This document shows, piece by piece, positions 2 to 61,217 of a stretch of DNA of 64,000 bases. The notes under the pieces were generated by a model, which saw only the letters and a program-made list of their open reading frames with translations, was not told the DNA's origin and made no database searches. Position 1 is the first letter of the stretch. Every line of letters starts with the position of its first letter. This DNA comes from Pseudomonadaceae bacterium (GTDB taxonomy: Bacteria > Pseudomonadota > Gammaproteobacteria > Pseudomonadales > Pseudomonadaceae). A program made the translations under genes and the position numbers. Where the stretch lies: positions 124,001 through 188,000 of the forward strand of contig JAUVZY010000002.1 of NCBI GenBank assembly GCA_030602315.1, read 5' to 3'.

Positions 2-763
2 CTTCCGGTGCGCCTTGCGGTGGCGCTGCTCAAGGACAGCGATGGCACCATCCGCCTGAACCTGCCGGTACAGGGCGATTTGAACAATCCCCAGTTCGAG
101 ATGATGCCGCTGGTATGGAAGACCCTTGGCAACCTGATCGCCCGGGCCGCACGGTCGCCGTTTCGCCTGATCAGCGGCCTGGTCAGCGCCGATGAACGCA
201 ACCTCAGCAGCATCGCCTTCGATCCCGGCAGTAGCGAGCTGGACGAGGCCGCACGCGAGCAACTGGCCCAGCTAGCCATGGCCCTGAGACAGCGCCCGCA
301 ACTGCGCCTGGACATCGAAGGCGCTGCGTCCCCCTGGCGCGATGGCCCCTCGGTCGCCAGCGAGCGCCTGGAGCAGGCATTGCGGGTGCTTTGGTACGAG
401 GAGCTACAACGTCAGGGCGAACGCCTGCCCAGCGATGCCGTACAACTGCAGGTGCCGGAGGCTCACCGCCCGCGACTGATCGGACGCCTCCATCAGCGCT
501 GGCTCGCGCCAACCCAAGCAACCTTTCCAACCCAGTCGACCGAACAACGCATAACGGAGCAGGAAGCTCAACTGCTGCAATACTGGTCAACGAACGAGTC
601 GCTATTGCGCACGCTGGGCCGCGCACGGGCGGCCACCATCAAGGATTACCTGGTTGATGTCCAAGGGCTGGATGACCAGCGCGTATTCCAGCTGGACACC
701 CGCGTGAGCGATCATCCCGACACCGAGCGCGTCATCAGCCAACTGCATCTGGGGAGTCGATGA
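2..763 (+). CDS. DUF748 family protein, C-terminal part (5' truncated by window)
   Basis: The reading frame is open from the first bases of the window, so the true start lies upstream and only about 253 C-terminal residues are visible. The opening stretch (LAVALLKD then LNLPVQGDLNNPQF) resembles the conserved end of DUF748 proteins, large AsmA-like envelope proteins. After it comes a segment with an OmpA-like rhythm (F.PGSSELD..A..QLAQLA..L..RP.L.L.I.G), also usual in the C-terminus of this family. The stop overlaps the next gene by 4 bases (ATGA), so the two are translationally coupled. The exact role is unknown; envelope biogenesis or lipid transport is a family-level guess. Confidence 0.8.
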   Translation, partial: LPVRLAVALLKDSDGTIRLNLPVQGDLNNPQFEMMPLVWKTLGNLIARAARSPFRLISGLVSADERNLSSIAFDPGSSELDEAAREQLAQLAMALRQRPQLRLDIEGAASPWRDGPSVASERLEQALRVLWYEELQRQGERLPSDAVQLQVPEAHRPRLIGRLHQRWLAPTQATFPTQSTEQRITEQEAQLLQYWSTNESLLRTLGRARAATIKDYLVDVQGLDDQRVFQLDTRVSDHPDTERVISQLHLGSR

Positions 764-55322: not shown

Positions 55323-56102
55323 TTACTCGGCTTTCGCGCCCTGCGTGCGCCGCTGCGCGCGGGCCAGACGCTCGGCCTCGCGGCGACCATCCTCCAGCAC
55401 TTCCTGCACGTAATGAATGTGCCGCTCGGAGATCGCCCGGGCATCTTCCGCACGGCGCTCGATGATCGCGTCGTACAGTGCCTGGTGTTGCTGCATCAGC
55501 ATCTGCCGGGTTTCCCCGCGCAGCGCGTACATGCCGCCGATGTTGGTCACCACGTTGCGTTTCAACAGATCGAACAGCCCACGCACGGTGTGCAGCAGCA
55601 CGGCATTGTGACTGGCCTCGGCGATCGCCAGGTGAAAGCGCGCATCCGCCGCCCCCTCCTCGGCCCGGTTGGACTCGTCGCCGCGCGCATAACAGGCCTG
55701 CAGGGCAGAAAAGGCCTCGCCCAGCCGCTGGCGATCGACCTCGGTGGCCCGGCTCGCGGCATAGAAGGCGCAGGCGCCCTCCAGCGTATGGCGAAACTCG
55801 AGCAGGTCGCGCTGGGCGTCACTGTTGTTTTCCAGAAGGCGCAGCAACGGATCGCTGAAGGTCGACCCCACCGACTCGACGACGAAGTTGCCGCCGCCAT
55901 GCCGACTTTCCACCAGCCCGCGTGCCGCCAGCTTCTGGATCGCCTCGCGCAGCGACGGCCGCGACACGCCGAAGCGCTCGGCCAGCACCCGCTCGGCCGG
56001 CAAACGCTCACCCGGCTTCAGCGTGCCTTCGAGAATCATCGCCTCCAACTGCGAGACGATTTCATCGGCCAACCGCCGATGCCGCACCACCCCCACTTCC
56101 AT
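55323..56102 (-). CDS. lldR: Lactate-responsive regulator LldR (FadR/GntR family)
   Basis: A 259-residue repressor. The N-terminal winged helix (about 1-75) has ILEGTLKPGERLPAERVLAERFGVSRPSLREAIQKLAARGLV (given in part) and the C-terminal all-helical FCD domain includes EFRHTLEGACAFYAA, ARFHLAIAEASHN with the metal/ligand histidine and RHIHYVQEVL. The ATG at 56102 is used; the frame continues through the divergent gene but without homology. Divergent from lldP. A TGGTATGACCA operator 12 bases upstream suggests autorepression. Confidence 0.92.
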   Translation of the reverse strand: MEVGVVRHRRLADEIVSQLEAMILEGTLKPGERLPAERVLAERFGVSRPSLREAIQKLAARGLVESRHGGGNFVVESVGSTFSDPLLRLLENNSDAQRDLLEFRHTLEGACAFYAASRATEVDRQRLGEAFSALQACYARGDESNRAEEGAADARFHLAIAEASHNAVLLHTVRGLFDLLKRNVVTNIGGMYALRGETRQMLMQQHQALYDAIIERRAEDARAISERHIHYVQEVLEDGRREAERLARAQRRTQGAKAE

Positions 56103-56114
56103 GCCGCCCTCAAC

Positions 56115-56125
56115 TGGTATGACCA
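56115..56125. promoter_or_regulatory. LldR operator proximal to lldR
   Basis: TGGTATGACCA fits the FadR-type consensus TNGTNNNACNA. It lies 13 bases upstream of the lldR ATG and shares 10 of 11 bases with the second site at 56246. Confidence 0.65.
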
Positions 56126-56196
56126 CTGATGATGAGTCGTAGATTAGCGATCCACGCGCCGAGCGACAATATGTCGGCTTTCTACTTTGGTACTTA

Positions 56197-56224
56197 TTGA
56201 CCCGCCGGCGAATGCTTTTATAGG
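56197..56224 (+). promoter_or_regulatory. Candidate lldP promoter
   Basis: TTGACC (56197-56202), 16 bases, TATAGG (56219-56224). The expected start near 56231 would leave the operator at 56246-56256 just downstream, a good position for repression. Confidence 0.4.
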
Positions 56225-56245
56225 CTGTGCGCACCGATGGGCATC

Positions 56246-56256
56246 TGGTATTACCA
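56246..56256. promoter_or_regulatory. LldR operator proximal to lldP
   Basis: TGGTATTACCA, a perfect palindrome around a central T matching TNGTNNNACNA. It lies about 114 bases upstream of the lldP ATG, 131 bases from the matching lldR-side site (start to start), which would allow looping. Confidence 0.7.
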
Positions 56257-56369
56257 CTTACCCGCCCATCCGGACCAGAACAATCACAAGAGGTCGCCAT
56301 GCCAGTCAGTTCAGCTCGCGCCCAAGGCGCCGCGATTCGCCCGCTCAACGCTTCGGAGGAGGTCTGACC

Positions 56370-58064
56370 ATGTCCAACGGCCTTCTCGCCCTGCTGGCGT
56401 TCTCGCCGATTCTGCTCGCCGCCATCCTGCTGATCGGCCTGCGCTGGCCAGCCCGCAGCGCCATGCCCGTGGTCTACCTGCTGACGGTGCTGGTCGCGCT
56501 GTTCGCCTGGGACATGAGCTTCAATCGGGTACTGGCCTCCACCGTACAGGGGCTGGTCATCACCGTGGGCCTCTTGTGGATCATCTTCGGCGCGATCCTG
56601 CTGCTGAACACCCTCAAGCATTCCGGCGGCATCGCCGCGATCCGCGCCGGCTTCACCACCATCAGCCCTGACCGGCGCATCCAGGCGATCATCATCGCCT
56701 GGCTGTTCGGCTGCTTCATCGAGGGCGCCTCGGGCTTCGGCACGCCGGCGGCCATCGCCGCGCCGCTGCTGGTGGCGATCGGCTTCCCGGCGATGGCCGC
56801 GGTGCTGATGGGCATGCTGGTGCAAAGCACGCCGGTATCCTTCGGTGCGGTGGGCACGCCGATCATTGTCGGCATCAACAGCGGCCTGGACACCGCCGCC
56901 CTGGGCGCCGAACTGGCCGAGCGCGGCTCCAGCTGGGAGCTGTTCCTGCAGCAGATCACCAGCGGTGTGGCGATCACCCATGCCCTCGTCGGCGTGGTGA
57001 TGCCGCTGATCATGGCGATGATGCTGACCCGCTTCTTCGGCAAGGAGAAAAGCTGGAAGGCCGGCCTCGAGGTACTGCCATTCGCCCTGTTCGCCGGTCT
57101 CGCCTTCGTCGTGCCCTATGTCGCCACCGGCGTGTTCCTCGGCCCCGAGTTTCCCTCGCTGCTCGGCGGGCTGATCGGCCTGGCCATCGTCACCAGTGCC
57201 GCGCGCCTGAATTTTCTGGTACCCAAGCGCAGCTGGGACTTCGCCCCGCGCGACCAATGGCCAGCCGCCTGGCTCGGCAGCATCGAGATGAAACTCGAAG
57301 ACCTCGCCGCACGGCCGATGAGCGCGCTGCGTGCCTGGTTGCCCTATGTGATCGTCGGCCTGTTGCTGGTGATCAGCCGGGTGTTCCCGCAGGTCGCCGC
57401 AACGCTCAAGTCCGTCTCGATCGCCTTCGCCAATATTCTCGGCGAAACCGGCATCAACGCCGGCATCGAACCGCTCTACCTGCCCGGCGGCCTGCTGGTG
57501 GTCGTGGTGCTGATCACCTTCTTCCTGCACGGCATGAAACCGCGCGATCTGGGCGCGGCGGTGAAGGAGTCGGGTGGCGTGCTGCTGAGCGCCGGCTTCG
57601 TACTGCTGTTCACCGTGCCGATGGTGCGCATCCTGATCAATTCGGGCGTGAATGCGTCTGATCTGGCGAGCATGCCGATCACCATGGCGCGCTTCGTCGC
57701 CGACAGCGTCGGTGACGTCTACCCGCTGCTGGCACCGAGCATCGGCGCACTGGGCGCGTTCCTCGCCGGCTCGAATACCGTGAGCAACATGATGTTCGCC
57801 AAATTCCAGTTTGGCGTGGCCAGCAACCTCGGCATCTCCGGCGCCATGATCGTCGCCCTGCAGGCGGTCGGCGCGGCGGCCGGCAACATGGTCGCCATCC
57901 ACAACGTGGTGGCCGCCTCCGCCACCGTGGGCCTGCTCGGACGGGAAGGCAGCATCCTGCGCAAGACCATCTGGCCTACGCTCTACTATGTGCTGGCCAC
58001 CGGTGTGATCGGCCTGATTGCGATCTACCTGCTAGGCGTGACCGACCCGCTGGTCGGCGCCTGA
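56370..58064 (+). CDS. lldP: L-lactate permease
   Basis: A 564-residue LctP/GlcA family lactate/glycolate:proton symporter with about 12-14 membrane helices. Family landmarks include [59 protein letters not shown] and [19 protein letters not shown]. The ATG at 56370 has GGAGGAGGT seven bases upstream; the longer frame begins too early. First gene of the lactate operon, under the LldR operator. Confidence 0.96.
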
Positions 58065-58143: not shown

Positions 58144-58965
58144 ATGAGCGAACTGTTCTATAACGCCGCACCCAATGCCACCCGCGTGGCACCGCCATTG
58201 CCGAAGCCGCGCCAGTACCCGGCCAAGCCGACCGACGCTTACCTGTTCGGCACCTGCGTGGTGGACCTGTTCTTCCCCGAGGCGGGCCTGGACGCGATCC
58301 GCCTGCTTGAGCGCGAAGGCATTCGCGTGCACTTTCCCCAGGGGCAGAGCTGCTGCGGTCAGCCGGCCTACACCTCCGGCTACACCGACGAGGCCCGTAC
58401 CGTGGCGCGCGCCCAGCTGGCGCTGTTCCCGGAAGACTGGCCGCTGGTGGTGCCGTCCGGTTCCTGCGCCGGGATGATCCGTCATCACTACCTGGACCTG
58501 TTCAAGGACGAGCCGGCCACCCTGCGCCAGGTCGAATCGCTGGCCGAGCGCACCTTCGAGCTGACCGAGTTCCTGCTGCACGTGTGCAAGGTCGAGCTGA
58601 AGGACCAGGGCCCGCCGACGCAGATCGCCCTGCACACCTCCTGCTCGGCGCGGCGCGAGATGAACACCCACCTGCACGCCCGTGAGCTGCTGGCGCAGCT
58701 GGATCAGGTCGAGCGCCTGGACCATGACCACGAGAGCGAATGCTGCGGCTTTGGCGGCACCTTCTCCGTGCGCATGCCGGACATCTCCGGCGCCATGGTC
58801 GCCGACAAGACCCGCGCCCTGCGCGAATCCGGCGCGACGCAGATGGTCACCGCCGATGGCGGTTGCCTCCTGAACATCAACGGCGCGCTGGACAAGCAGG
58901 GCCACGCCTTCCGCGGCCAGCACCTGGCCTCGTTCCTCTGGCAGCGCACGGGAGGCTCGCAATGA
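58144..58965 (+). CDS. lldE: L-lactate oxidation subunit LldE (LutA-like, CCG domains)
   Basis: A 273-residue iron-sulfur-associated protein with two cysteine-rich CCG domains. The first contains FGTCVVDLFFPEAG and SCCGQPAYTSGY. The second contains LHTSCSARREM and SECCGFGGTFSVRMPDIS. It is one of three subunits (LldE, LldF, LldG) that together oxidise L-lactate to pyruvate with a quinone-linked acceptor. ATG at 58144. Its stop overlaps lldF by 4 bases. Confidence 0.94.
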   Translation: MSELFYNAAPNATRVAPPLPKPRQYPAKPTDAYLFGTCVVDLFFPEAGLDAIRLLEREGIRVHFPQGQSCCGQPAYTSGYTDEARTVARAQLALFPEDWPLVVPSGSCAGMIRHHYLDLFKDEPATLRQVESLAERTFELTEFLLHVCKVELKDQGPPTQIALHTSCSARREMNTHLHARELLAQLDQVERLDHDHESECCGFGGTFSVRMPDISGAMVADKTRALRESGATQMVTADGGCLLNINGALDKQGHAFRGQHLASFLWQRTGGSQ

Positions 58966-60422
58966 ACACCGCCGAACGCATCCCCGCCACGCAGATCGAG
59001 AACGCCGGCGACCCGGACTTTCGCGCCCGCGCGCGCGGCGCGCTGAAGGACGACCAGCTGCGGCGCAATTTCCGCCAGGCGATGGACTCGCTGATGGCCA
59101 AGCGCGCCAACGCCTTCAGCGATGCCGACGAGCGTGAGCGCCTGCGCGAGATGGGCAACCACATCCGCGCCCGCGCCCTGTCCAAGCTGCCCGAGCTGCT
59201 CGAGCGCCTGGAAACCAACCTGACCCGCAACGGCGTGAAGGTGCACTGGGCCGAGACGGTCGAAGAGGCCAACGCCATCGTCCTGGAGATCGCCCGCGCC
59301 CACCAGGCCAAGCAGGTGATCAAGGGCAAGTCGATGGTCAGCGAGGAAATGGAGATGAACCATTTCCTCGCCGAGCGCGGCATCGAGTGCCTGGAGTCGG
59401 ACATGGGCGAGTACATCGTCCAGCTCGACCACGAGAAGCCCTCGCACATCATCATGCCGGCGATCCACAAGAACGCCCGCCAGGTCGCTGCGCTGTTCAA
59501 CGACAAGCTCGGCGTCGAGTACACCGAGGATGTCGACCAGCTGATCCAGATCGGCCGACGCACCCTGCGCCAGAAGTTCTTCGACGCCGACATCGGCGTC
59601 TCCGGGGTCAACTTCGCCGTGGCCGAGACCGGCACGCTGCTGCTGGTGGAAAACGAGGGCAACGGGCGCATGAGTACCGGCGTGCCACCGGTGCATATCG
59701 CCGTCACCGGTATCGAGAAGGTGGTGGAGAATCTGCGCGACGTGGTGCCGCTGCTCTCCTTGCTGACCCGCTCGGCGCTGGGCCAGCCGATCACCACCTA
59801 CGTCAACATGATCTCCGGCCCGCGCCAGGCTGGCGAACTGGACGGCCCGCAGGAAGTACACCTGGTGCTGCTGGACAACGGCCGCAGCCAGGCCTTTGCC
59901 GACAGCGAACTGCGCCAGACGCTGAACTGCATCCGCTGCGGCGCCTGCATGAACCATTGCCCGGTGTACACCCGCGTCGGCGGGCACACCTACGGCGAGG
60001 TCTACCCCGGCCCGATCGGCGCCATCGTCACTCCGCACATGGTCGGCCTGCACCGGGTGCCGGATCACCCCAGCGCCTCGTCACTCTGCGGCGCCTGCGG
60101 CGAGGTCTGCCCGGTGAAGATCCCGATTCCTTCGCTGCTGCGCCGCCTGCGCGAGGAGAACGTCAAGGCGCCGGATACGCCCAGGCAGGTCATGCGCGGC
60201 CAGGGCAGCAAGTACTCGGCGAGCGAAAAGTGGATCTGGAAAGGCTGGAGCCTACTGTTCTCCACCCCGACGCTGTACGCCACCTTCCGCTTCTTCGCCA
60301 CGCGCCTGCGCGGCCTGACGCCAAAAAAGGTCGGCCCCTGGACGCAGCACCACACGGCGCCCAAGCCGGCGGCCCGCTCGCTGCACGAGCTGGCCAAGGA
60401 GCATCTGGAGGGCCGGCGATGA
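58962..60422 (+). CDS. lldF: L-lactate oxidation iron-sulfur subunit LldF (LutB-like)
   Basis: A 486-residue protein with an N-terminal LUD-type domain (about 65-290, with KGKSMVSEEMEMNHFLAERG and GVNFAVAETGTLLL) and a C-terminal ferredoxin region carrying two [4Fe-4S] sites, CIRCGACMNHCPV near 325 and CGACGEVCPVKIP near 375. It relays electrons from lactate within LldEFG. The ATG overlaps the lldE stop. A 123-base gap with REP-like palindromes separates it from lldG. Confidence 0.95.
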   Translation: MNTAERIPATQIENAGDPDFRARARGALKDDQLRRNFRQAMDSLMAKRANAFSDADERERLREMGNHIRARALSKLPELLERLETNLTRNGVKVHWAETVEEANAIVLEIARAHQAKQVIKGKSMVSEEMEMNHFLAERGIECLESDMGEYIVQLDHEKPSHIIMPAIHKNARQVAALFNDKLGVEYTEDVDQLIQIGRRTLRQKFFDADIGVSGVNFAVAETGTLLLVENEGNGRMSTGVPPVHIAVTGIEKVVENLRDVVPLLSLLTRSALGQPITTYVNMISGPRQAGELDGPQEVHLVLLDNGRSQAFADSELRQTLNCIRCGACMNHCPVYTRVGGHTYGEVYPGPIGAIVTPHMVGLHRVPDHPSASSLCGACGEVCPVKIPIPSLLRRLREENVKAPDTPRQVMRGQGSKYSASEKWIWKGWSLLFSTPTLYATFRFFATRLRGLTPKKVGPWTQHHTAPKPAARSLHELAKEHLEGRR

Positions 60423-60444
60423 GCTGTTTCCGACAGCCGCCAAC

Positions 60445-60521
60445 GGCGGACAAGGCTGAGCCGTTGTCCGCCCTACCTCGCCGCCTCGTAGGGTGGAAAA
60501 CACGCCCAGCGTTTTTCCACC
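60445..60521. repeat. Pair of REP-like palindromes in opposite orientation
   Basis: 60445-60472 has arms GGCGGACAA / TTGTCCGCC followed by CTAC. 60492-60521 has arms GGTGGAAAA / TTTTCCACC preceded by GTAG. The GTAGGG signature lies on the inner side of both, so the two elements are inverted relative to each other, as in a REPIN. The only such doublet in this window; it sits inside the lactate operon. Confidence 0.6.
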
Positions 60522-60545
60522 ACAGCGCCATCTTCGGAGCCTGAT

Positions 60546-61213
60546 ATGAGCGCCAAAGCCAACATCCTCGCCAAGCTGAAAAAGAGCCTGGAAGGCACCC
60601 AACCGGTGGTCGACGACTACGACGTGGGCCTGGTGACCCAACCCTGGACCTACGCCCCGGCCGAGCGCATCGCCCGCCTGCGCCAGCTGATGGAAGCGGT
60701 GCACACCGAGATCCATCAAACCACCGAGGCCGAGTGGCCCGCCCTGCTCGAGCGCCTGCTCGCCGAGCGCGGCCTGCCGAGCCTGTTGATCGCCCCGAGC
60801 ACGCCCCACGGCCAGCGCCTGACCGCGCATGTTGCCGGGCGGGCGGACGCCCCCGTGCTCAAGGCCTACGACCGCCCGGTCGAGGACTGGAAGGACGAAC
60901 TGTTCAACGACACCCCGGCCAGCCTCACCGGCACCCTCGGCGCCATCGCCGCCACCGGCAGCCTGATCGTCTGGCCGACGCCCGAAGAGCCGCGGCTGAT
61001 GAGTCTGGTGCCGCCGGTGCACTTCGCCCTGCTCAAGGCCAGCCAGATCCGCGACAACCTGCATCAGGCGATGACCGAGATGAACTGGGCCGGCGGCATG
61101 CCGACCAACGCCCTGCTGATCTCCGGCCCCTCGAAGACCGCCGACATCGAGCAGGTGCTCGCCTACGGCGCCCACGGACCGAAGGATCTGGTCGTGCTGA
61201 TCCTGGAGGACGC

Positions 61214-61217
<4 letters not shown>
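60546..61217 (+). CDS. lldG: L-lactate oxidation subunit LldG (LutC-like, LUD domain)
   Basis: A 223-residue LUD-domain protein, third subunit of LldEFG. Conserved segments include LTGTLGAIAATGSLIVWPTPEEPRLMSLVPPVHFALL (in part) and the C-terminal LISGPSKTADIEQVLAYGAHGPKDLVVLIL (in part). Without Fe-S motifs. Its stop overlaps the dld start by 4 bases, so the two are coupled. Confidence 0.93.

Follow-up and report, generated by a model that had tools for sequence, protein, structure and literature searches.

A predicted two-promoter switch between lldR and lldP in a Pseudomonadaceae bacterium and a third element conserved in its relatives

The divergent genes lldR and lldP of this Pseudomonadaceae bacterium are separated by 267 nt, between the lldR ATG (56100-56102, minus strand) and the lldP ATG (56370-56372), and two almost identical palindromes lie in this gap. 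One would wonder whether these palindromes are the two feet of a single repression loop or whether each of them serves the promoter at its side. We analyzed the gap in the window, that is, the whole stretch of 64,000 nt of DNA, and in related loci. From the arrangement of the sites, we find it quite probable that the gap is a two-promoter switch, in which LldR would block each promoter locally from its own operator, the two units being separate and the linker between them variable in length.

The lactate locus and its operators

On the minus strand, the gap is bordered by a gene coding for a 259-aa regulator of the FadR/GntR family, lldR-type according to NCBIfam profile scores (55325..56102). 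On the plus strand come lldP, which codes for a 564-aa lactate permease of the LctP family (56370..58064; TIGR00795, 353.6 bits for a cut-off of 341), and then lutABC-type lactate oxidase genes (58144..61217, made of 58144-58965, 58968-60422 and 60546-61217), assigned by NCBIfam profiles and gene order. The lutB product scored above the cut-off of TIGR00273 (LutB/LldF), that of lutA gave a partial match to LdhH below the cut-off, and no NCBIfam match was found for lutC, whose name rests on gene order. In P. aeruginosa PA7, the lactate locus contains an open frame with 81% identity to the next gene, which we take to code for a D-lactate dehydrogenase. The neighbours of the gap on both strands thus fit a lactate locus. 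The naming of the regulator as LldR or PdhR is uncertain. It scored 228 bits with the NCBIfam model PRK10421 (LldR), below the curated cut-off of 311 that marks equivalogs, and 261 bits with PRK09464 (PdhR), also below the cut-off (330) yet higher than with the LldR model. In the available part of PMC8827060, a Pseudomonas regulator acting on an lldP promoter is named PdhR. We kept the name lldR because of the genomic place of the gene.

The original prediction placed two FadR-type operators at 56115 and 56246, one beside each divergent start and differing at one base. Our pattern search recovered exactly these positions and sequences: the palindromic O1 (TGGTATGACCA, plus strand, 56115..56125) is the operator nearest to the lldR ATG, O2 (TGGTATTACCA, plus strand, 56246..56256) is the one nearest to the lldP ATG, and their starts are 131 nt apart. 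The fit to the FadR-type consensus was also borne out, both sites agreeing with the palindrome T-K-G-T N3 A-C-M-A; the available text of PMC4494728 is the source of the FadR-subfamily consensus and gives the GT-N3-AC spacing as its rule for LldR. Throughout the 2.79 Mb assembly (78% complete), TGGTATNACCA matches exactly two sites, O1 and O2, for 1 match of the reversed pattern used as a control. When the 267-nt gap was shuffled 20,000 times with its dinucleotides kept, the strict palindrome TGGTNNNACCA appeared once in 36 cases and twice in none. The loose consensus TNGTNNNACNA was discarded as evidence, since its 4 matches in the window are no enrichment over the 4.54 expected.

Relatives of the locus came from two sources: 80 named records, including a few non-Pseudomonadaceae, of which 60 (L033-L091 and L111) were counted, and the 107 of 119 Pseudomonadaceae genomes having an lldR match, one per genome at E <= 1e-50. 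Once 43 near-duplicates had been removed from the 167 lldR loci collected, 124 non-redundant loci were left. In 121 of them, O2 follows a TTGA -35 at a distance of 48-51 nt, the three exceptions under this search rule being L088, G104, which retains the central element described below, and L091, which retains a second operator. O1, searched for within 30 nt of the lldR ATG, is present in 41 of these 121 loci, 12-24 nt from the ATG, and was not found in this zone in the other 80, so that autoregulation via O1 is not general. Its presence differs with the permease: 37/53 loci of the LctP type, 3/22 of the other type and 1/46 unclassed loci. A tie between O1 and the oxidase cassette was ruled out, O1 being found with both LutABC and LldD-type loci. 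Among the counted named loci (L033-L091, L111), the unit formed by lldR, the promoter and O2 heads LutABC or LldD-type oxidase cassettes and two distant permease types; the operons look as if they had been swapped behind one and the same switch.

Each operator of the window adjoins a predicted promoter. The pattern TTGTCG-17-TAATCT (minus strand, 56141..56169), which adjoins O1, is the predicted lldR promoter, and O1 would cover about +9 to +19 of its transcript. The loose pattern TTGnnn-16..18-TAnnnT is found right of O1 in 32 of the 41 O1 loci, for 1.9 expected by shuffling, and a stricter one beside O1 in 26. The predicted lldP promoter (plus strand, 56197..56226) was delimited from the TTGA-O2 distance and an alignment of 25 loci. 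It has TTGACC as -35 (56197-56202) and two alternative -10 elements, TAGGCT (56221-56226, spacer 18) and TATAGG (56219-56224, spacer 16), and O2 would lie at about +14 to +24 from the predicted start. The TTGACC-16-TATAGG promoter of the original prediction does exist as a sequence and TATAGG is a possible -10, but TAGGCT aligns better by eye with the relatives among the 25 loci. A simple sigma-70 scan called no promoter anywhere in the gap.

Local repression or a loop

Taken together, the sequences support the view that O1 and O2 are conserved operators of the FadR subfamily and that each of the divergent promoters has one. Since each operator is found immediately past its own predicted promoter, the earlier proposal that lldR and the lactate operon are repressed simultaneously appears well supported. 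We infer that an LldR-type repressor dimer would bind O1 and O2, which reach no further than about base 25 of the predicted transcripts of lldR and of lldP-lutABC, respectively. In the absence of lactate, each promoter would be blocked locally, while lactate would release LldR and allow both promoters to be read. The two promoter-operator units would have been built separately, and because they are separate and their linker variable in length, a fixed loop would be unnecessary.

A parallel can be drawn with the lldPRD operon of E. coli, reportedly described by Aguilera in 2008, where the lldP promoter is said to be surrounded by the LldR operators O1 and O2, the latter shortly after the start. 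Common to both systems would be a single FadR-type lactate regulator with two operators about this promoter; here, unlike in E. coli, lldR is divergent, O1 lies by the lldR start and the oxidase is LutABC-type, not LldD. Another parallel is the Pseudomonas lldR-lldPDE system, said to have been described by Gao in 2012. The regulator of P. aeruginosa PA7 (L075) is 76% identical to that of the window, and the lldP promoter-O2 unit is common to both; in contrast, 19 of the 22 loci with the distant permease are without O1, and PA7 has that permease together with a gene in the LldD position. In the FadR-subfamily divergons with double sites, as far as the available text of PMC4494728 goes, the regulator gene and its divergent target are likewise separated by a gap that holds two GT-N3-AC palindromes, whose spacing grows with the gap; the relatives studied here have in addition a third element, at a rigid position between the two sites. 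We regard the operator pair as a sound and ordinary two-operator lactate divergon of a known kind, and as expected biology.

The 131-nt spacing had also been considered suitable for looping. LldR bound to O1 and O2 would then close a repression loop over both promoters, as proposed for E. coli lldPRD, and the two near-identical sites do flank both predicted promoters. The available part of PMC7804116 cites E. coli LldR as possibly able to loop; in the reporter library described there, distal LldR sites did not enhance repression and showed no synergy with proximal ones. The helical phase of the window depends on the period chosen, 131 nt being 11.91 turns at 11.0 bp/turn and 12.48 turns, about half a turn off phase, at 10.5 bp/turn. 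Among the 41 two-site loci, the spacing is 131-159 nt in 39, and 180 and 252 nt in two. Phasing gave p values of 0.006-0.046 at periods 10.0-10.5 when all 41 loci were used with kinship uncorrected, but the spacings cluster at 140-141 and 156-159, and these clusters are taken to be relatives and the source of the low values. The 18 distinct spacings showed no phasing at six periods from 10.0 to 11.3 (p 0.31-0.78), so that the conserved helical phase by which a loop pair would be recognized is lacking, although a flexible loop may tolerate phase. The 80 loci without O1 also speak against a loop. Moreover, the spacing follows gap length (Pearson 0.60, Spearman 0.71, n = 40, related loci being counted as independent and G006 being dropped from the 41 as it had no gap value), while the -35-to-O2 and element-to-minus-35 distances are nearly fixed. 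In 3 of these 40 loci the lldP start was drawn from a distant alignment and may be about 30 nt off; a repeat on the 37 LctP-type loci, which excludes them, gave 0.56 (Pearson) and 0.67 (Spearman). According to the available text of PMC4494728, a spacing growing with gap length denotes separate sites, each for its own operon; however, its 'constant spacing' FadR group also correlates moderately (0.64), so the correlation alone is not decisive. With a spacing that varies and tracks gap length, unclear phasing and the lack of synergy in E. coli, the suggestion that 131 nt suits looping did not hold up, and we regard such a loop as unlikely.

One could also assume that only O2 works as an LldR operator and that O1, close to the start of lldR, is weak or restricted to certain lineages. 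The much wider retention of O2 would agree with this, but O1, where present, carries all 8 palindrome bases, as the search rule demands, at a near-fixed place in divergent loci. In addition, the loci without O1 do not look like decayed copies: a site with one mismatch was seen in 7 of the 80, and a control stretch gave a site with no more than one mismatch in 5 of 80. We consider a role of O2 alone quite unlikely and retain local repression from both operators as the preferred reading.

The leader of lldP

Downstream of O2, the sequence and the 25-locus alignment reveal a short upstream ORF of 22 codons (plus strand, 56299..56367), with a stop 2 nt before the lldP ATG. It has its own Shine-Dalgarno sequence, AAGAGG (56288-56293), and the Shine-Dalgarno sequence of lldP falls inside it. 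This ORF, like the predicted lldR promoter and the conserved central element, had been missed in the original prediction. An upstream ORF of 11-29 codons with its own Shine-Dalgarno sequence is present in 38 of the 46 LctP-type loci whose leader reaches at least 90 nt, a raw count, and its stop lies between 16 nt upstream and 11 nt downstream of the lldP start. As for the remaining long leaders, the ORF of L041 runs in frame into lldP and 7 loci are without ORF; 7 further LctP-type loci have leaders shorter than 50 nt. Since the 25 aligned loci keep the start column (ATG in 24, GTG in one) but differ in the coding part, the ORF suggests translational coupling to lldP, not a conserved peptide.

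The same leader contains AACAATCA (plus strand, 56279..56286), which by motif comparison departs at one base from AAnAAnAA, the Crc/Hfq CA motif. Of the 121 loci, 69 have a perfect motif no more than 90 nt downstream of O2, the window counting as a miss, for 4.7 expected by mononucleotide shuffling. A search for RNA elements in 55900-56500 gave a single weak match, with an E of 0.59 and far below the gathering score.

The central element and its possible activator

In relatives, a third element is observed between the operators. In 109 of the 121 loci, the 10-mer GACCAAAGTC is found, with two changes or fewer, 13-14 nt upstream of the -35 of lldP (13 nt in 97, 14 nt in 12), for 0.27 loci expected at this fixed place when the same 40 nt are shuffled. 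Matches at other distances in 4 more loci, one of them the window, are no more than chance, because shuffling gives 3.8 matches at any distance. The other 8 loci exceed two changes, and 4 of them keep a three-change copy at 13 nt. When the 119 genomes were searched for the element followed by 13 nt and TTGAC, one mismatch being allowed, matches were found in 75 genomes; the reversed pattern gave 56 matches, so that one-mismatch matches carry real background. Among the matches listed, all 26 exact ones adjoin the lldR match by coordinate comparison, and lldR is present in 22 of the 30 loci retrieved from this search. The marine loci L092-L110 and L112 were left out of the counts; each has one to three TGGTNNNACCA and none showed the central element at the fixed place. 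Seven of them (L104-L110, from Oceanospirillaceae, Pontibacterium and Marinobacterium) have three TGGTNNNACCA upstream of lldR, not one or two.

What could bind such an element? In the available part of PMC5715377, the ACTU motif is needed for activation of acs by CrbR in P. fluorescens SBW25, where it occupies -52 to -36, and is reported for actP in most species. We built an ACTU matrix from six published SBW25 sites. Among the acs loci of other genomes, 8 of 25 scored 17.6-20.2 and the remaining 17 at most 10.3; upstream of actP-type matches, 0 of 20 exceeded 9.2, so acs alone served as a check of the matrix. Applied to the lldR-to-O2 stretch, it scored such that at most 5 of 100 shuffles were as good in 106 of the 121 loci, with 9 clear failures (more than 20 of 100). 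The sequence TACGACCAAAGTCTAAT of L036 and L037 reached 21.7, above all eight acs sites. The near-invariant core positions of ACTU (AC...GTC) are also near-invariant in the central element, and both share the core (G/T)AC-N5-GTC within a 17-mer just upstream of a predicted sigma-70 promoter. They differ in that the element belongs to a lactate promoter, has AAA as its centre and flanks unlike those of the acs sites, and in relatives stands about 9 nt further from the -35.

The window itself is peculiar in this respect, as no canonical copy of GACCAAAGTC was found 13-14 nt before its -35. Beside its -35 lies an inverted 8/10 match to GACCAAAGTC, namely TACTTTGGTA (minus strand, 56183..56192), a degenerate candidate for a relocated ACTU-like site. 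It ends 4 nt upstream of TTGACC, which comes close to the geometry at acs. The ACTU matrix score has a shuffling p of 0.012 in the lldR-to-O2 stretch and 0.009 in the whole gap. The state of the window may reflect loss of the element, its re-making in inverted orientation, or chance. Within the genus, G039 (70% complete) is also without the element, while G010 and G027 have it, the locus of G010 having a permease of the other type.

We read the central element most readily as a site for activation by a LuxR-type response regulator; CrbR/ErdR is the leading candidate, and its link to lldP is a prediction. The element may well serve another regulator instead, either a paralogous LuxR-type protein or a different activator, for which we see slightly less than an even chance. 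Its distinct flanks and centre, its greater distance from the -35 and the lack of any lactate gene among the targets in the available part of the SBW25 genome scan (PMC5715377, Table 4) would agree with this, as would a further LuxR regulator encoded in the genome of the window, whose DNA-reading part is similar by eye. Against it stand the shared near-invariant core and the score of the L036 and L037 copies beyond the range of the acs sites.

The genome of the window codes for a CrbS-like protein (G000:C7:39307-42780) with PAS, kinase and receiver domains and a symporter match just below cut-off, and for a CrbR-like candidate (G000:C5:81546-82193), chosen because its relatives lie 97-661 nt from CrbS in 13 of 13 genomes of genus g5. 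Another LuxR regulator, of the L308 type, is present in 71 of 119 genomes; it was passed over as CrbR, since the type of the chosen candidate is the one that adjoins CrbS in g5. The dgkA neighbourhood, considered as a possible guide to CrbR, showed no LuxR gene. CrbS and CrbR were found in 115 and 116 of the 119 genomes, and as both are near-universal, their co-occurrence with the element is uninformative. In the genus of the window, no acetyl-CoA synthetase above the TIGR02188 cut-off was found in G000, G010, G027 or G039, two of the last three being about 99% complete. CrbS- and CrbR-like proteins are nevertheless found in G000, G010 and G027.

Within the preferred two-promoter switch, the lldP unit of the family would have a third part, the GACCAAAGTC activator site upstream of the -35, which in the window would be displaced and inverted, or lost. 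A wider hypothesis, possible but which we hold only tentatively, is that the CrbS/CrbR (MxtR/ErdR) acetate switch has the lactate operon as its second arm across Pseudomonadaceae. A LuxR-type response regulator would activate lldP at the rigid ACTU-like site and LldR would gate it at O2, an AND of lactate and an acetate-type signal; the site of the window would have been lost, or re-made inverted about one helical turn closer, nearly in the geometry of acs. A tie between CrbR and lldP was not found in the available CrbR/ErdR or lldP literature, and its novelty is weakly evidenced because most subscription papers lay outside the search. What is new here is the conserved central element, and this is the part worth an experiment. 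If it is a CrbR site, pseudomonads would control lactate and acetate use jointly, a link that would matter for engineered lactate sensors and for the growth of many species on lactate.
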